A DNA stretch of 64,000 nucleotides from Gracilariopsis chorda. Its lineage: Eukaryota > Rhodophyta > Florideophyceae > Gracilariales > Gracilariaceae. Location: the NCBI GenBank assembly GCA_003194525.1, contig NBIV01000021.1, positions 62,001 through 126,000 of the forward strand, given 5' to 3'. Position 1 is the first letter of the stretch. Each line of letters begins with the position of its first letter. A program made the position numbers and the translations under genes. Under the pieces are notes generated by a model that saw nothing but the letters and a program-made list of their open reading frames with translations, had not been told where the DNA came from and did no database searches. Shown here one piece after another: positions 16,334 through 25,723 of this stretch.

Positions 16334-17929
16334 TCAGTATGGATGCTTTAGCACCTCACGCAATACCGGTACATTAGGTACAGCTACTTTCCGATACTTC
16401 TTGACGTGCGCAACCGCATCTTCAAGACCCATGCCCTTGACCCAACACAGATAAGCAACTGCACAAGCTGGAGCCCTCCCCATGCCAGCGGTGCAGTGAA
16501 TGTACACCTTACGCCCTTCTTTTAGCAAAACATCCAGGGCGTGCGTCGCACCGTTGAGCTTTTCTCTGAGTGAGTCGCGATCAAAGTCACGGATTTGGAA
16601 GCGAACAACTTTTATATCGTGATGTTTGTAGCGCTCTAGAAGAAGCGACCACTGGATGGCGCGATGTTCAAAGTCCTCATCAGTCTGCAAATTGAATACG
16701 GCCGTAACGCCAGCGCGTGCCATCTTCTCAATGTCATCCAAGCTCTGCGGGTACGGGCCGATGAACATGTTGGGCGGCACGAGATCAAACATTAGGTCAG
16801 ACACAAAATTAACGTCTCGCAAGATGCGCTCGCTGTTGACGGCGGCTTCGTCCGCATCAAACTGCGCGCGGCGATTCGGCTCGCGTTCCCAGAGTTCGTG
16901 CTTGGAGACGGTATCGACAAGAATGTAGCGATATGAAAAAGGTTGAACATCCGGCTTGACCCATACAGAGAGATGCCATTTACGGCCCTTGACGTCGGTT
17001 TCGAGCATCTCCACCGGGCCAAGTTGCATGGGGATAGGTCCAGGTTTGAACCAGGCTCCAATTTGCGGGAGATCACCAGTGATGTGCATGATATCAGCGT
17101 TTTTTGCCGGGTAGTAAATGCTGAAGTCCAGTCTGATGCATTCCCAGCGATCATCCCAGACGCGGTCGGGCAGTTTAGCCGATGGCAAGGCAACTCTATT
17201 AGGGCCGTGTTCCCAGCGTCGAGAAGCATCACTGCGACGCGTTAAGTACTTGTATTCGAAACGATGGTTGAGACGATTGCGCTGGATTTGGATGGTGAGC
17301 TCGAAAAGGTTGGCTGAAACAGGTCTCATGGGAGGGGAGTGCATTTTATTCCACACACCTAGCTCAGGAATACTGCCGACGACATAGAGGTTCTCATTGT
17401 CGACGACGCGACACTCGACTCGAAAGACAAGCGATTCGAGGTCATCTGGGGTTTGGACGCCGTTCTGGGCGCCGGCGGCGACGCGAGCGGCGGCGATGGA
17501 GAGGGGGTCGGAGACGGGGAGACCGCGTGCGGGATTTCGTGCGGGCGTAGGGGGTGGACTGGCGGCGAGGGCGGAGGGATGGGGATGGATATGGCCGTTG
17601 GAGGCTCGTTGTGGAATGAAGTGGTCGGAGGAAAGACCCCACTGGAGGTCGAGGGTGTAGTTGGGCTGGGGGTTGAGGGGGAGAAGGGCGACGTGGTTTG
17701 CGCCAGGTTCCCATTGGAAGGTACCATCAGCGGTGCGGACGCAGAACTTGAACTCGAAGCGGGAGGGGGCATGGAAGGAGGGTATGGGAACGGGGACGGT
17801 CCAGAAGTGGTTACTTGTCCATTCGCAGACAGGTGCTGCATTTGGGTCCCATTGTCCGAGCGATTGGGAGCTGCCAACGAGAAGGAGGCAATCACCGTAG
17901 GGGAGACGTCTTTGGAGTCGGAAACGCAT
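16334..17929 (-). CDS. glucan (starch) phosphatase: three CBM20 domains plus dual-specificity phosphatase
   Basis: 531 residues. The ATG at 17929 (MRFRLQRR) starts directly on the first CBM20 strand. CBM20 domains are seen at about 1-97, 167-266 and 268-358, each with the family pattern (VGSSQSLGQW, VGSIPELGVW, TGDLPQIGAW) and later WE.G.N or WE.E.N. The phosphatase domain spans about 375-531. It has the P-loop HCTAGMGRAPA (Cys479) and the upstream loop IRDFDRDSLR, which supplies the acid aspartate. It should remove phosphate from starch-like glucan in the cytosol, as laforin and SEX4 do. CBM20 placed before the phosphatase is laforin-like, but the catalytic loop is SEX4-like. Three CBM20s is more than the single one in vertebrate laforin. 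It starts 232 bases downstream of the BED-finger gene on the same strand. Confidence 0.9.
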   Translation of the reverse strand: MRFRLQRRLPYGDCLLLVGSSQSLGQWDPNAAPVCEWTSNHFWTVPVPIPSFHAPSRFEFKFCVRTADGTFQWEPGANHVALLPLNPQPNYTLDLQWGLSSDHFIPQRASNGHIHPHPSALAASPPPTPARNPARGLPVSDPLSIAAARVAAGAQNGVQTPDDLESLVFRVECRVVDNENLYVVGSIPELGVWNKMHSPPMRPVSANLFELTIQIQRNRLNHRFEYKYLTRRSDASRRWEHGPNRVALPSAKLPDRVWDDRWECIRLDFSIYYPAKNADIMHITGDLPQIGAWFKPGPIPMQLGPVEMLETDVKGRKWHLSVWVKPDVQPFSYRYILVDTVSKHELWEREPNRRAQFDADEAAVNSERILRDVNFVSDLMFDLVPPNMFIGPYPQSLDDIEKMARAGVTAVFNLQTDEDFEHRAIQWSLLLERYKHHDIKVVRFQIRDFDRDSLREKLNGATHALDVLLKEGRKVYIHCTAGMGRAPACAVAYLCWVKGMGLEDAVAHVKKYRKVAVPNVPVLREVLKHPY

Positions 17930-18161
17930 GATGTGTGGGTTGTGCGGATTGCACAGGCGCAGCGGGTGAAGTTTCGGAAGGGAGTGGGGAGCAGATGATG
18001 ACACGCGTGGCAAAAGGCGGGCGCGAAGAGCAAAGAAGCGGAGCGAAGCGGAGCGAAGCGAAGCGAAAGAGGAGTTGAGTGGCGAAGCGCAAGTTGCGCA
18101 AGTATGTAGATATCTTGCAGCTGCCAATGAGCAACGGCGCCAAATACAGTATATCTCTGTA
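17930..18161 (-). promoter_or_regulatory. promoter region of the glucan phosphatase
   Basis: Contains a purine-rich (GCGAAGCGGA)-type repeat at about 18030-18070, the 11-mer GCGAAGCGCAA at 18082-18092, and a CCAAT on the plus strand at 18124-18128. The same 11-mer (or its complement) lies upstream of two other genes in the window. Function is inferred. Confidence 0.4.
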
Positions 18162-20321
18162 TCACACGCCCATGGGCGCCGCAGTCTCTCCGCCTCCGCC
18201 CACGTCGCCGTCCACGTTCGCAGCTCCCACCGCCACCGCCGCCGCCGCCATCGCCGCCCCATCGATCTCGCCCACGCCCTCCGTCACCGCCGCCACCGCC
18301 ACCGCCGCCGCCGCCGCCGCTGCCGCAGCCGCCGCCGCCGTCGTCGCGGCCACCATCTCGCCTTCTCCGCCCACCATCTGCACCGCCACGCTCGGCGCAG
18401 CCATGGCCTGCATCTCCTGTTCCGCCAGCTGCGCCTCTTCCACACCCGCCGCGGCAGCCGCGCTATCGCCCTCCGCTTCCCCCCCGCCATCCACGCGTCC
18501 GTCCATCGTGAAGCCTTCCTTCACGTCGGGCACAACCGCGGCGGCGCGCTCCATCTCCGACACGCGTCGCTCAAAGTCGTCGCCCAGCGTGCATCCCAGA
18601 AGTCGCATTCCCGCGCTGTCGCTCCTCCGAAGCCGCTTCACGCTGATTGCCTCCCCCATCAACTCGCTCTCCACGTTCACCAGCTGCCACTCCTCCGCGC
18701 ATACCGCGAACAGCACCGTTGCCAGCTCGCTCCCGTCCCATCGATACGACACGCGTTCCATCTCCACGTTGGCGCGCGCCTTGCTCAACAGCTTTCTCAC
18801 CGCCTCAGCACTCTCCTCGATCTCCACGCGGAACACCGTCTGCGTCTTCCCCGCATCCATACTACCTGCGCGCCACTCCACCATATCCACCTCATCACCG
18901 TCCGACCCCGAAATATCGTTCACCCCAAACCCACGTGCAGCCAGCTCACTGATCAACCCTTCCTTGCTCTTCTCGGCGTCCAACATGAATCCAACAATCA
19001 CAGGCCACTCGCCAACATACCTCACCCTGCTCACATGAAACGAATCCAACTCTCTCATCAGCTCCTCAACCGAGCATCCATTCTCCCGCTGCGAAACCTC
19101 AAACAGACATTGCTTGCTATCAACCCTCTCAGCCAGATCAGCAACGCGTCTCATCTGCGCAAAGTCGCTCAGAGGCCAGTCTGTCACACACAGCACTCGT
19201 TCGTGCTCAAGCGCTTGATCCTTGCAGTAGCGAATGGCACCCGCCACTGCTAGTGCACCCTCCGGTTGTAGCATGGCGTCACAGTCATTGAACACCGCTT
19301 TCACAGCGGCGCACATTTCAGCACGAGTCACCCGCACCACGTCATTAACAAACGCCCTCCAGTCCTCACTCATGCGCACGCCTTGTACCACCACCGCAAT
19401 CAGCTTGACACCTTGTCCGAGTCTGTGCAGAATGGCGGCCAGAGCTGCAAACAATGGCGCATTTCCAGCTCTAACAAAAATAGCGTGCGCATGTGCACAC
19501 TGTTGCAGAATTTCCAGCCCCAGAGTTGCGTAGCCCGCCACGGCGTGATCCACACCGGCGCTCAGGTCAGCGGCCACATCAACCAACGTGCGGTTCTGAT
19601 CAGCGGCCAATGTTTGTGCCAGTTGTACGCCATCGTCGAGCGCAAAGTGGAGCTTTGCATCGGCGGCGGTGAAGTGTCGTCGTCTGGCAGGCGACGTATT
19701 GCGTTTGAGAAGTGCGGCACAAGGCTTTCCATGCTGCTGTGCGGCTATTGCCACGGAGAGCGCATCGGCGCCTCTGCACATCACGCCGCCCTTGGCTATG
19801 GGCGTGTTGGAAATGTAGTTGTAGGCGGCGCGAAATACTGAGGAACCTCCCTTCTGCAGATCCTCCCTCTTGACGAAGAGCGAGCAGGACGTTTGATGCG
19901 AGAGAAACTCCATGGGCTGGCATGGCGTTCGCAAAGCTGAGCGGAAGGTGGATGAGATCACGGCGGTCTCCAACAGGATGTCGGTGGTTTGAAACGGCTT
20001 CGGCGCTACGGGGGCTACGGGCGGCGGCACGAGCGGAGTTATGCGAGGGTTTCCAGAAAGTTTGGGACGCTTTTGACGCGGTTGAGTACCGGCGCTGAAC
20101 TTGCCATACTCTTCAGCATGGCGACGTCGCATGTGTTGAATGAAGTTACTCGTCACATTGCGCTGTCCCTTGATGGTGGCGCCGCAATGTCGACAAGCGG
20201 CCTCGACATAGCCGTGCGCCTGGTCCACCTTGTACGTGGAGACGTCAAAGTGCTCGAGGATGATACGCGGCGGCTTGACGGGCGGTAATACGCGCTGTTT
20301 GGGCGTCAACGACGCGGTCAT
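18162..20321 (-). CDS. BED zinc finger fused to inactive threonine-deaminase-like protein with two ACT-like domains
   Basis: 719 residues from the ATG at 20321; a more upstream in-frame ATG lacks any domain. Residues 21-75 form a BED-type finger (C43-x2-C46-x16-H63-x5-H69). A basic linker (RQKRPKL) follows. Residues 115-380 match biosynthetic threonine deaminase (IlvA): KREDLQ at 151-156, LGLEILQQ near 267, CAAVKAVFNDCDAMLQPEGA near 337. The PLP-binding lysine is Val162 (SSVFRAAY where IlvA has SFKLRGAY). The SAGNHAQG loop is CRGADALS, and the Gly-rich phosphate loop is RAGNAPL. Catalysis is therefore unlikely. Residues 402-580 match the paired ACT-like regulatory domains (RGFGVNDIS). An Ala-rich tail from a GCC microsatellite ends the protein. 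A DNA-binding, amino-acid-sensing role is an inference. Confidence 0.85.
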   Translation of the reverse strand: MTASLTPKQRVLPPVKPPRIILEHFDVSTYKVDQAHGYVEAACRHCGATIKGQRNVTSNFIQHMRRRHAEEYGKFSAGTQPRQKRPKLSGNPRITPLVPPPVAPVAPKPFQTTDILLETAVISSTFRSALRTPCQPMEFLSHQTSCSLFVKREDLQKGGSSVFRAAYNYISNTPIAKGGVMCRGADALSVAIAAQQHGKPCAALLKRNTSPARRRHFTAADAKLHFALDDGVQLAQTLAADQNRTLVDVAADLSAGVDHAVAGYATLGLEILQQCAHAHAIFVRAGNAPLFAALAAILHRLGQGVKLIAVVVQGVRMSEDWRAFVNDVVRVTRAEMCAAVKAVFNDCDAMLQPEGALAVAGAIRYCKDQALEHERVLCVTDWPLSDFAQMRRVADLAERVDSKQCLFEVSQRENGCSVEELMRELDSFHVSRVRYVGEWPVIVGFMLDAEKSKEGLISELAARGFGVNDISGSDGDEVDMVEWRAGSMDAGKTQTVFRVEIEESAEAVRKLLSKARANVEMERVSYRWDGSELATVLFAVCAEEWQLVNVESELMGEAISVKRLRRSDSAGMRLLGCTLGDDFERRVSEMERAAAVVPDVKEGFTMDGRVDGGGEAEGDSAAAAAGVEEAQLAEQEMQAMAAPSVAVQMVGGEGEMVAATTAAAAAAAAAAAAVAVAAVTEGVGEIDGAAMAAAAVAVGAANVDGDVGGGGETAAPMGV

Positions 20322-20723: not shown

Positions 20724-22409
20724 ATGCCGGATTTTGCGAAGGGCTCTGTCCAGACCATCACCGTAGCCCCGCACAGCAATCTTCTCGCCGCCCAAACATC
20801 TTCAGATTCCTTTGCTCTTGCGCGTATAGAAGCGCCGACGAAGTCGCCCCAACCGTTCCAACCCTGCAAGACCTATGCTGCTTCTTCTCTCACATCCCTC
20901 TGCCTTCCCTCAACCAACGTTCTCTACCATGCAGATTCAAGAGGAGCATTTCATCGCCACGCAATATCCGATGCACCCACGCTTCAGTACTCGGTCGACG
21001 CCGCTCATTCAGGCCACGAGCTGACCACTGTAACCGCCCTATCGTCTGATTCCCTCGTCATCACAGCCGGAAAAGACGGCACCGTGCGATGTTGGGATCC
21101 CGAGACACGTCAGAGCACAGCTCGACTAGCCGGCCACCGATACGAAGTTCGCTCCGTAGCGGCATCATCGTCGTCCGATGTCGATGCCACTCCCGTCACC
21201 ATCGTCGCTTCCGGAGGGAGAGATAAGACAATACGCCTTTGGGACGTGCGTGCACATTCGTCAAAGGAGATTCACGTCTTTGAGGGCCATTCTGGATGGG
21301 TGCATAGCGTTGCTTTAACCGCCACCCCGTCCCCACTGCTGCTTTCTTGTGCGGGCGATAAAACCGTTCGCTTGTGGGATCTCGTCGCAATGAAGCAACG
21401 TACCGTCTTTAGCGGTCACGAATTCCGCGTCTGGAGCGTTGCGTTTTCCCCAGATGGCTCTTTTGCAGTTAGCGGAAGCACTGATGCTACTGTCAGGCTA
21501 TGGAGCGTTGGCAAGGACGAAGGCAAGTGTAATATCCTAGAGGGACATAGAGATAGTGTCATATCCGTCGCTGCTCATACACCGGCTTCTGTTATTTCTG
21601 GTTGTGAAGACGGCGCGTTGTTTAGCTGGGATTGTCGCGGTCTTCTCAATGTCCCTAAAGATGCACCTCTCGTCAACACTCAAGTCGAACAGAAAGCAGT
21701 ACCAGCTGTGTCTTCTGCTGTCGAATCGGAACAAACGTCGCCGAGGAGACGTCTTTCACATCGCCGTATTGGCCAAACACCGCTCGATCACAAACAATCG
21801 TCACCTAGGAGAACTGTTCCGGAGAGCATTATCGACCAATCCCCGGTTGATCACAAGCAGCCACTGATCCAGACTGAAGCACAACCTAAGTCTACATCCG
21901 ATCGTCAACCATTCTCCTCCGGCAAACCAAAACACGTTGGCGCCGATGAATTGCGCTCTGAAAATGTATCAAACACTGCACACTCACCAAGCGCTTCACT
22001 CGGTACCCAGCGCACAGAGTTACTGAAGACAGCCGCCGTTACACCCCCCCAGAAGGACCCCCGGTTTGACAAATCCGCTGCTGAACTAGTAAACGCATTA
22101 AAGCAGATACAAACTTTAGAAAAGTCTTTGCAACAGGCGCAAACATCTTTGCGAATGAAGGATACCCAGATCGAACAATTGAATCGATCGGTTGCAGAAA
22201 AGGATACATTCATTTCACGTCTTCAAGCGGAAGCTGATTCTTCCAAACAGCTTCTGCATGCAGCGAATGTGAGAAAGCTCTTTCTGGAAAACCCGAGGAA
22301 GGCCGATGTTGCTCTGGACTATCAAGAACCTGTTAACAAGATTGGAGCTGTGACCGATCAACTTTCAGCCTTGAAGGCTAGACTGGATGCTATGATTGCT
22401 ACTAACTGA
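20724..22409 (+). CDS. WD40-repeat protein with C-terminal coiled coil
   Basis: 561 residues; the ATG at 20724 lies in ACCATGC context. At least five clear WD40 repeats lie at about 95-320, with end motifs GTVRCWD, KTIRLWD, KTVRLWD, ATVRLWS and GALFSWD and the typical GH dipeptides. The N-terminal 95 residues are probably degenerate blades of the same propeller. A Ser/Pro/Gln-rich linker (about 330-430) leads to a coiled coil at about 440-545 with heptad pattern (IQTLEKSLQQAQTSL, IEQLNRSV). It should be a scaffold in a protein complex. Partners cannot be told from sequence. The architecture recalls centriolar POC1, but red algae lack centrioles, so I do not transfer that name. Confidence 0.8.
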   Translation: MPDFAKGSVQTITVAPHSNLLAAQTSSDSFALARIEAPTKSPQPFQPCKTYAASSLTSLCLPSTNVLYHADSRGAFHRHAISDAPTLQYSVDAAHSGHELTTVTALSSDSLVITAGKDGTVRCWDPETRQSTARLAGHRYEVRSVAASSSSDVDATPVTIVASGGRDKTIRLWDVRAHSSKEIHVFEGHSGWVHSVALTATPSPLLLSCAGDKTVRLWDLVAMKQRTVFSGHEFRVWSVAFSPDGSFAVSGSTDATVRLWSVGKDEGKCNILEGHRDSVISVAAHTPASVISGCEDGALFSWDCRGLLNVPKDAPLVNTQVEQKAVPAVSSAVESEQTSPRRRLSHRRIGQTPLDHKQSSPRRTVPESIIDQSPVDHKQPLIQTEAQPKSTSDRQPFSSGKPKHVGADELRSENVSNTAHSPSASLGTQRTELLKTAAVTPPQKDPRFDKSAAELVNALKQIQTLEKSLQQAQTSLRMKDTQIEQLNRSVAEKDTFISRLQAEADSSKQLLHAANVRKLFLENPRKADVALDYQEPVNKIGAVTDQLSALKARLDAMIATN

Positions 22410-23716
22410 TACAAGGGTTACCCTGTTCTATGCGGACTAACTCTCTAATTTGTTATACTTCACTTCGTTAATGTCTTCAGCTTATGATAGCAGCCAAACC
22501 ACTACTTTTCAAGAACAGACAAACGATTGTGTAAAAACTAGGCTTGTTTAGGTGCAGAAAACGACACATAAATAGAAGATTCACCTCTAGCTCTTGTACT
22601 GCTGTGCTCTGATCGCACTTTCGTATTCGACTGCAACTTGCCTTGTCGCGGGTCGCAAAGACAGCAACGTTCACTTGACAGAGTTGAGCGCTTCCAGAAA
22701 CATATTTTCCTTTGATGCAGCCATGATGTACGAATACGCTGAACACGAGCTACTCCAGTCCAAAAGGCAGTCGTCCTTTCGTCCCGTGCCAAGTTGTCTT
22801 GGCTGTCGTTGACATCGAGGATGATAGCCCGAGCTTTCTGACGTACAAAGTACTGCGGACCCTTTTCGGGCCTGCGAACAAGCTCTCTCTACCAACGGTA
22901 CGTCTGGGCCACAGGGCTGTTTTTCTCTTGGTATGAAAAGGAAATAGACTACTGTTCATGAATGAATCAGAACTTGAAGCGTTTCCACATTGGCTGTGAT
23001 CCAGGTGAAGGATCTCGTCCAAGAGTCACGCTGTTTATGGCAAAGTCACTGAAGGCGCCGATTAACATACACGAAGATTATTAAAATCTGGTGCGAAAGG
23101 TCGTAAACAATGTCCTTCTTGTGATACTGCTGTGCTACTTGAACCGTGATGAGCAAAAGTTATCCCGAATCGAAGCGACCCATGGAATGAGAGAGTTGTA
23201 GAAAGCACATACTTTTACTTGATTGCGTTCTGTCAGCATTTCTCTTCTGCTCATTAAAAAGCGATGTTCACCCCGACAGTAAAAATCTCCCCACGGTGAC
23301 GAGAGTTCTTCTCAATATGAATGCAAAACAGAATCTTGGAGAGGTGACAAAAGCTTTGTGCTTCTTAGTATGTCCGAAAGTGTCAGCTCTCACGGAGGGA
23401 GATTTCAGCTTTTCTTGCACCCTTCTGCCTTTTCGCTGTGGAAGCACTCACAGATTCGTAAGGAAGAAATAGTAGCAGTTAACTTGTAAACAATGGTGTG
23501 GATAGGTTTTCTCACACACTACTGATCCAACCATTCCCCACTTCGAAGCAAAACACATCTTTCCATATCGCAGCCATTGCGGTAACCCATCTGCTTTTGT
23601 TTTGCTCGGGCTGGAAGTCAATTCTGTGAAAGCTTTGAAAACTTCGCAACTCTGAAGGTTGGAGGGCATTTCTGCTTTGTATACGGACTATCTTTCTTGA
23701 GTTACAAAGGTTGACC
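22410..23716. other. AT-richer intergenic stretch
   Basis: Holds the 3' UTR of the WD40 gene and the 5' flank of the formin. Short frames occur on both strands with no domain. I see no RNA gene or repeat. Confidence 0.5.
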
Positions 23717-25723
23717 ATGGCTCGCAGGAGTAAAAGAAATGATGCTCAGGTTACTCTGGAGGATAGATTGGGCCCAGATGTGCTAAAGAAGTTAGAAACA
23801 ATGGCCGGCGAATTCGTTCGGTTTGAGAAAGGCGACTTTGGTTTTTTCATTGATCCAGCTCGGTATGCTGTGAAGCAGAGACAAGTTGGTCCACTGGGAA
23901 GAGGACGTCGCAGAAAAGTGGTTGCCGGAGTTGATAAAGACGGAAACATCATTACTGCGTGGATCGGAGTCGACAACAAAAGTAAGGGGACAAAGACTGA
24001 TGCTGGTGAGCTCGTTAACATTCCTGACGGTTATGGGGATGGAACCGGCCACGTCGGAACAGGTACGGGAAAAGGAGGTGGCAAGGGAACTAAAGGTGGA
24101 GGAAAGGGAGGCGGCGGCGGAGGGGGCGGTAGTGGCAGTGGCAGTGGCAGTGGAGGTGGGAGCGGTAGTGGTGATGGTAGTGGAGGTGGAGGAGGAGGTA
24201 GTGGGGGCGGTGGCGGAACCGGCAGCGGAGCTCCAAATAGTGGAGGTTCAGGACCAGGAAGCGGACAAGGTGGTAGGAAATCCGCAGCAAAACCACCAGC
24301 CAGTGCAGCCGAAGTTGCCAAACAAGCGGCGGAGAAACGAGCTATAGCAGGGGTATCCAGCACGCCTGAAAAGAAAGATGAAGATGGAACGAAGCCTGCC
24401 GCGCCGACAGGACCCCCTGTTCCGAAACCACCCGTTGGGAATCTGCAGGCTAAGGCGAACGAGGCAAGAGGTCGCAAGAAGAAGCCTCTGCATTGGGCAA
24501 AGGTTCCCAAGAATCTTCTCAAAGACGCCATGTGGACTTCTCTTGATGATAGCTCAATTCGTCTGAATGAAGATGAAATCGATGAGTTGTTTGGTGTGGA
24601 TGTTGCACCGCAGTTTGTGGCAGAAGCTGAAGCAGCGAAGCCTGAGGTGCTGCCTCACAAGCGGAAGCACAACGTCAATATTATTCTAGCCAATCTGAAG
24701 ATGACCACTGACCAAATTAAGGACGTAGTCAGGGTACCAACATACAAGGAACTGGAGGCGTCTAATCTACAAGCATTGCTAATGATCTGCCCAACTCCAG
24801 AAGAAGAGCAGCTGCTGAATCAGAACCAAAACATTATCGACGAAGTGGACAAAACCGATAGGTTTATGATGGAGTTGGCACAACTACCGGGTCTGAGAGG
24901 GAAGGTTTTGTGCGGACTCTCAGCAAAGACATTTAACGAAGAGGCCATCGATTTGATCAAGAGCATGGATACTTACGCCATGATTCCGGTCGAAGTTGAG
25001 AACTCTGCAAAGTTGAACAAGATGCTGGAAATTGTCCTGGCACTTGGCAACTTCTTGAACTCAGGAACTGGTCGTGGTGGAGCGCACGGCTTCAAGTTGG
25101 AGGCTTTAGCAATGCTGAGCACAGTTAAGGACTCGAGGGGAGATACTCTCCTGGACTACCTCGTCAAGATCATCATGCAGGATTATCCGCATCTGTATCC
25201 GCTGGACGACATGCCAACTCTACAAAAAAGCGAGGCGCTGTCTCTGGATGCCATTGGAGAAGACGTACAGGCGATTCTAGACAGTGTGACGAACGTGGCG
25301 GAGCAAATCAAGCAAATTGGTGACGATCCATCAATGGAGAGATTCAAGTCCGAAATGAGCGCGTTCTCAGAGGAAGCGACAAAAGTAAGAGAAGAAATTG
25401 TTTCACTTCGCGCACTGATGATGGAAAAGCTTCAGCATATGATGGCGCACTTTGGGGAGAGAAACAAGGCTGCGAGGGGCCGGCAGGAAGATATTTTAAG
25501 GATGCTGAGAGAATTTTCCGCAGACCTGACGGCTGCGGTTGCCCGCTACAACGAGAGATGTGAACGAGAAGCTAAGAAAGCGGCAAAGGCCGGCGGTAAG
25601 CCACCAGCTAAACCTGTTCCTTCCGGAGAAAATGTGCCTGCGCTACCAGATGCACCGCAAGAGGGCCCTAGCGTGACCGAAAAAATTGTATCGGGCTCCA
25701 GAGCTAGCGGAACTGCAGAATGA
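23717..25723 (+). CDS. formin (FH2-domain actin nucleator) with Gly/Ser linker in place of FH1
   Basis: 668 residues; the ATG at 23717 sits in the context ACCATGG. It nucleates and elongates unbranched actin filaments. The FH2 domain begins near KKKPLHWAKV (255-264) and runs to about 620. Its hallmark is LALGNFLNSGTGRGGAHGFK (441-460), and LPGLRGKV is near 390. The N-terminal 110 residues are basic and match no GTPase-binding or PTEN/C2 domain that I know. Residues 115-187 are almost pure Gly/Ser. Only a tiny proline run (TGPPVPKPPVG, 231-241) stands where the profilin-binding FH1 is usually long. The C-terminus (about 630-668) shows no clear DAD motif. Regulation by Rho GTPase is therefore uncertain. 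Confidence 0.92.
   Translation: MARRSKRNDAQVTLEDRLGPDVLKKLETMAGEFVRFEKGDFGFFIDPARYAVKQRQVGPLGRGRRRKVVAGVDKDGNIITAWIGVDNKSKGTKTDAGELVNIPDGYGDGTGHVGTGTGKGGGKGTKGGGKGGGGGGGGSGSGSGSGGGSGSGDGSGGGGGGSGGGGGTGSGAPNSGGSGPGSGQGGRKSAAKPPASAAEVAKQAAEKRAIAGVSSTPEKKDEDGTKPAAPTGPPVPKPPVGNLQAKANEARGRKKKPLHWAKVPKNLLKDAMWTSLDDSSIRLNEDEIDELFGVDVAPQFVAEAEAAKPEVLPHKRKHNVNIILANLKMTTDQIKDVVRVPTYKELEASNLQALLMICPTPEEEQLLNQNQNIIDEVDKTDRFMMELAQLPGLRGKVLCGLSAKTFNEEAIDLIKSMDTYAMIPVEVENSAKLNKMLEIVLALGNFLNSGTGRGGAHGFKLEALAMLSTVKDSRGDTLLDYLVKIIMQDYPHLYPLDDMPTLQKSEALSLDAIGEDVQAILDSVTNVAEQIKQIGDDPSMERFKSEMSAFSEEATKVREEIVSLRALMMEKLQHMMAHFGERNKAARGRQEDILRMLREFSADLTAAVARYNERCEREAKKAAKAGGKPPAKPVPSGENVPALPDAPQEGPSVTEKIVSGSRASGTAE

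Follow-up and report, generated by a model that had tools for sequence, protein, structure and literature searches.

In a 64,000-nucleotide stretch of the genome of the red alga Gracilariopsis chorda (contig NBIV01000021.1, positions 62,001 to 126,000; hereafter the window), one uninterrupted minus-strand frame encodes a 719-amino-acid protein (18162-20321, stop included) that joins a BED zinc finger to the body of a biosynthetic threonine deaminase (IlvA) whose pyridoxal 5'-phosphate (PLP) site has been lost. It is observed that the frame is single, that the finger motif is intact, that the body descends from IlvA and has lost the main residues of the PLP site, and that relatives keep the same fusion; the family is real and conserved. 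A regulatory role for this BED–IlvA family is likely, and retention of the fusion in relatives suggests the conversion of an enzyme into a gene regulator. We favour, with moderate confidence, a history in which one copy of a two-ACT threonine deaminase acquired a BED finger in an algal ancestor and became a nuclear DNA-binding regulator.

The initial annotation, made from the DNA letters, had proposed this single-frame fusion, and Pfam bears it out with two domains over cut-off: zf-BED at residues 41-68 (E 1.7e-7; 31.6 bits against a cut-off of 20.6) and PALP at 131-315 (E 8.9e-28). Thr_dehydrat_C fell under its cut-off (E 0.011). The start at ATG 20321 is backed by the aligned N-termini of two relatives, P0002 and the Agarophyton protein P0003. 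Alignment of the body with threonine deaminase, ACT pair included, had also been claimed and holds: the family profile matches the ordinary IlvA profile in hhalign with 100% probability (E 8e-53, 461 columns), spanning both ACT domains. NCBIfam IlvA models likewise extend across the ACT pair, though under cut-off (subfamily PRK09224, 142.2 bits, E 2e-41, against 577; two-ACT equivalog TIGR01124, 139.1 bits against 411.3), and comparison of the predicted structure with IlvA found a structural match. The protein is IlvA-related yet under every NCBIfam cut-off, and by descent and fold it is homologous to IlvA from the catalytic fold through the whole ACT pair.

Within that fold, the PLP site is dismantled. 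Three alignment methods (phmmer, MAFFT and hhalign) agree with the earlier placement of Val162 at the PLP Schiff-base lysine. This position is V or I in all 14 family rows that cover it (11 aligned rows plus P0122, P0123 and P0124), K in 110/110 ordinary IlvA proteins (P0012-P0121) and also lysine in 60 ordinary matches of the alignment search (59 by motif pattern, P0133 by eye). Residue counts at active and effector sites refer to those 11 family rows and 110 ordinary proteins. The reported change of SAGNHAQG to CRGADALS stands, its Asn being lost in 11/11 family rows. The Gly-rich phosphate loop, described earlier as gone, proved to be altered, GGGGL having become GNAPL; glycines 2-4 are lost and the first Gly is retained, each in 11/11 rows. 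At SGAN.NF, the Gly, the Ala and both Asn are lost in 11/11 rows, with Ser retained in 4/11 and Phe in 11/11, and the FADGVAV segment is missing from the window protein.

The wider pattern was counted by column over 10 family rows, as were the domain identities given below; P0002 was omitted as a near-copy and P0122-P0125 lay outside this set. Ordinary IlvA has 109 columns conserved at ≥98%, 28 of which are retained by at least 9 of the 10 members and 38 lost in all 10, a few as gaps in some or all rows. From residue 111 onward, 26 residues are invariant in 10/10 members and rare in ordinary IlvA, which suggests that the family body is under continued selection.

The finger shows both the C-x2-C-xn-H-x3-5-H pattern and the Pfam match. 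Three of its ligands (C43, C46 and H63) had been assigned correctly; the second His is H68 rather than H69, residue 69 being Ala. In a ten-member alignment zf-BED was found at E 0.05 or better in 10/10 members, and in a nine-member alignment in 5/9, the finger being absent or incomplete in the frames of four of those members. A zinc-ligand pattern match in P0125 sits in that protein's body and was rejected as false. The basic linker noted initially is present as RQKRPKLS, a putative nuclear localization signal (NLS).

BED zinc-finger proteins include ZBED, DREF and hAT transposases. Like them, the window protein has a C-x2-C ... H-x4-H finger with zf-BED over cut-off; unlike them, it has no reported hAT dimerisation domain. 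A hAT transposase or domesticated transposase was set aside on this domain, for which the window protein gave no Pfam match at E 1. Elsewhere in the genome there are 42 hAT dimerisation-domain matches (for example L007-L009), of which several occupy long open frames and some are interrupted by stops. Only two BED fingers exceed the cut-off: the one in the window protein and another in a Pro-rich frame (L005 781-2418, on G000:C223) that gave no other Pfam match at E 0.001. With these 42 hAT matches and the second BED finger in the genome, the finger may have come from a transposon.

The same architecture recurs in relatives. Sequence and alignment searches, each of which scored the 8000 candidates sharing most words, yielded at least 14 further members. 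Among the 120 matches listed of 169 in the protein search, 10 carry BED and PALP in the same finger–body order: P0002, a 99% copy of the window protein; P0003, a protein product of the Gracilariaceae red alga Agarophyton chilense at 69% identity; and eight others at 34-47%. The finger region alone as query returned 9 matches among 10 candidates, all with the same fusion, P0009 not included. The alignment search found the same 10 members together with P0122, P0123, P0124 and P0125. P0125 is a fragment without the PLP-lysine site, and P0122 and P0124 start within the finger, as an intron inside the finger region might produce.

The origin of the family within IlvA is less sharply placed. In a tree of 13 family and 26 ordinary rows the family forms a single clade (support 100/100) on a very long stem (length 3.57). 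In a tree of 12 family and 20 ordinary rows the alga's own IlvA weakly adjoins it (54/64), and an approximately unbiased (AU) test did not reject grouping the family with a fungal IlvA (p-AU 0.241) or with the one-ACT group (0.4). The family is not firmly placed among IlvA, and descent from the alga's own enzyme would be weakly supported. An ordinary IlvA is encoded once in the same genome, on C25; C2 carries a protein provisionally labelled dehydratase/racemase-like.

In the mechanism that we envisage, a two-ACT threonine deaminase copy would have been joined to a BED finger in the ancestor of these algae, and the basic KR[PR][KR] linker would direct the protein to the nucleus. The IlvA body may form a dimer or tetramer, pairing fingers on DNA, and would bind a small metabolite through its remodelled cleft or ACT pair, thereby altering DNA binding. 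In the many members having one, the acidic tail may contact the transcription machinery as an activator. More tentatively, and short of a view that we would defend outright, these proteins may constitute a red-algal class of transcription factors, eukaryotic and responsive to a metabolite: a fold-type-II PLP enzyme would have lost its cofactor and been remade into the sensor of a BED-finger protein, and a new ligand would occupy the remodelled cleft or the interface of the ACT domains.

Several observations weigh against this account. The predicted model is weak overall (mean predicted local distance difference test score (pLDDT) 61.1; predicted template-modelling score (pTM) 0.37) and poor near the old active site, and whole-chain structural matches to IlvA have a root-mean-square deviation above 9. 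BED fingers are known in transposase-derived and structural proteins too. An acidic tail is not general: strong in P0004-P0008, P0123 and P0125, it is weak in P0001 and P0003, while P0010, P0122 and P0124 have no acidic end and P0009 and P0011 carry an acidic stretch at the N-terminus. Of all domains the ACT pair is conserved least, with mean pairwise identities (45 pairs, 10 members) of 0.39 (ACT1) and 0.34 (ACT2) beside 0.79 for the finger, 0.55 and 0.51 for the catalytic fold and 0.19 for the inter-ACT linker; short linkers, N-terminus and tail lie near or below the level of the ACT domains. Since the finger is best kept and the ACT domains only weakly, a conserved ACT effector is argued against. 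A branched-chain amino acid is a possible effector, one that the conservation pattern does not favour.

The effector residues add to this list. In yeast Ilv1, the isoleucine-responsive ACT pair has Tyr423 and Tyr526 as effector tyrosines and His480 and Arg482 in the linker (PMC8904041). Yeast numbering was transferred by motif spacing in a fungal IlvA; the transfer fits exactly between His480 and Tyr526, and Tyr423 is out by 3. The window protein has Tyr at both effector positions (Y435 and Y526) and does not retain the linker His or Arg. Across the 11 family rows, to which the effector-site reading is confined, the ACT1 position is Y in 5 and F in 6, the ACT2 position is Y in 6, F in 3 and L in 2, the linker His occurs in 1/11 and the Arg in 0/11. 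The sensor-regulator proposed initially is upheld in part: the fusion, the PLP-site loss, the ACT-like pair and the recurring architecture agree with it, but weakly conserved ACT domains, a linker His/Arg pair lost in nearly all rows and inconsistently kept effector tyrosines speak against a sensor. The checks that the proposal had set for itself did not refute it: fused homologues exist, sequence comparison gave no replacement-like lysine, and P0123 carries the finger's end together with body and tail.

These same features give most substance to a rival in which the IlvA body is an oligomerisation scaffold only and the protein a constitutive DNA-binding or chromatin-architecture factor without a ligand, a reading that we regard as unlikely but serious. 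Low ACT conservation, inconsistent retention of effector and linker residues, and loss of the PLP pocket with homology and fold retained all fit a scaffold; against it, the 26 new invariant residues, N287 of the former phosphate loop included, hint at a newly formed pocket. We think it improbable that the protein is instead a regulatory partner of ordinary IlvA, a dead copy in mixed oligomers whose finger serves protein contacts and not DNA. Such a partner would draw on the shared fold, the ACT-like pair and the ordinary IlvA in the same genome, but the NLS-like linker and a finger conserved more than the body argue otherwise, as does compartment, plant-type IlvA being located in the plastid.

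Continued enzyme activity, through a relocated lysine or PLP-free chemistry, is more improbable again; the residue losses make both PLP chemistry and deamination of threonine very unlikely. In its favour, four body lysines are conserved (K151 and K199 in 10/10 members, K306 in 9/10, K341 in 8/10). Lys is usual in ordinary IlvA at the columns of K151 (110/110), K306 (57/110) and K341 (66/110), so K199, where Lys is not among the commonest residues of ordinary IlvA, is the sole new one; reasoning from the fold, we expect it on the helix that follows the old Asn loop, at the distal end. The Asn, phosphate and SGAN loops are altered as well. A relocated PLP lysine was set aside on this list of conserved lysines, a comparison of sequences without coordinates in which no replacement-like lysine was found. 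The weakest alternative, that two adjoining genes or a pseudogene were misread as one frame, can appeal to the low-complexity tail and to antisense open frames over the 3' half of the gene, but the finger–body order is repeated in 10 further database proteins (one the 99% copy), P0123, by its accession style presumably from a transcript assembly, runs from the last residues of the finger through body and tail rather than separating them, and pseudogene or gene-model error was set aside on the recurrence of the fusion and of the new invariant residues.

Table 1. Features of the BED–IlvA fusion gene, in window coordinates.
Feature	Position	Strand	Evidence
Whole reading frame	18162..20321	-	719 codons and stop, no intron required
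BED region, residues 16-75	20097..20276	-	zf-BED E 1.7e-7; mean pairwise identity 0.79 (45 pairs, 10 members)
Zinc-ligand core C43-x2-C46 ... H63-x4-H68	20118..20195	-	C43, C46, H63 and H68 invariant in 10/10 aligned members
Basic NLS-like stretch RQKRPKLS, residues 82-89	20055..20078	-	KR[PR][KR] core in 14/15 members; P0125, the 15th, is a fragment
IlvA-like catalytic-fold domain, residues 111-398, PLP site lost	19128..19991	-	PALP E 8.9e-28; hhalign; structural alignment
Val162 codon replacing PLP lysine	19836..19838	-	phmmer, MAFFT, hhalign
CRGADALS replacing SAGNHAQG, residues 182-189	19755..19778	-	Alignment
GNAPL replacing phosphate loop GGGGL, residues 286-290	19452..19466	-	Alignment; N287 invariant in family
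ACT-like domain 1, residues 402-470	18912..19118	-	Predicted structure and structural alignment; Thr_dehydrat_C E 0.011, under cut-off
ACT-like domain 2, residues 493-564	18630..18845	-	Predicted structure and structural alignment; Thr_dehydrat_C E 0.011, under cut-off
Low-complexity Ala/Gly/acidic tail, residues 573-719	18165..18605	-	24 D+E against 6 K+R in 147 residues

A neighbouring frame (16334-18262, minus strand) combines CBM_20 starch-binding domain, in two stretches, with a dual-specificity phosphatase domain, a layout that we take to be that of a laforin-like glucan phosphatase. The divergent neighbour (20724-22409, plus strand) encodes a WD40-repeat protein and starts ~400 bp away; operators sought in this divergent promoter amounted to two short inverted repeats in the shared gap, with no test against chance. 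Further on lies a formin with an FH2 domain and an extended Gly-rich run (23711-25723, plus strand).

A literature search, with most subscription papers outside its reach, found no description of a BED–threonine deaminase fusion, and the main texts of two red-algal transcription-factor surveys, searched by word, nowhere use a term that starts with BED or mention threonine. If our reading is right, the family gives red algae another candidate regulator, and with the fold retained and the pocket changed the ligand question is directly testable with one protein.

Among the closest known systems is IlvA itself, whose body, like CysK, belongs to fold type II. The two-ACT form of IlvA (TIGR01124; PDB 1tdj, 9d2q and 8y1j, and 9d2r for the regulatory domain with isoleucine) shares with the window protein the order of catalytic fold, ACT1 and ACT2 and the KRED and P.GA..VAG blocks. 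Unlike IlvA, the window protein lacks the PLP lysine, the Asn loop, most of the phosphate and SGAN loops and the FADGVAV segment, and it has gained a finger and tail; the ACT linker His/Arg is lost in nearly all family rows.

Three precedents exist for an enzyme-derived sensor; the family belongs to none of them, since each departs from it in fold, cofactor or fusion. Among the fungal repressors QutR, GaaX and TanX, the working hypothesis for QutR is a catalytically inactive enzyme copy that retained inducer recognition and controls transcription (PMC10512348); these are AROM-derived, however, and target a separate Zn2Cys6 activator without a finger of their own. CysK–CymR of Bacillus also has a PLP enzyme controlling a transcription factor (PMC6522883), but there the enzyme is active, unfused and acts in trans. 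A CysK–CymR peptide structure, by its title from Staphylococcus, was among the structural matches. MocR/GabR proteins join a DNA-binding domain to a PLP-enzyme fold for sensing (winged helix-turn-helix plus fold-type-I aminotransferase; PMC6522883, PMC5320631). Those are bacterial, PLP-binding and built on another enzyme fold, whereas the window protein is eukaryotic and has lost its PLP site; if the regulator reading is true, the family would parallel the MocR regulators in a eukaryote, with another PLP-enzyme fold as its base.
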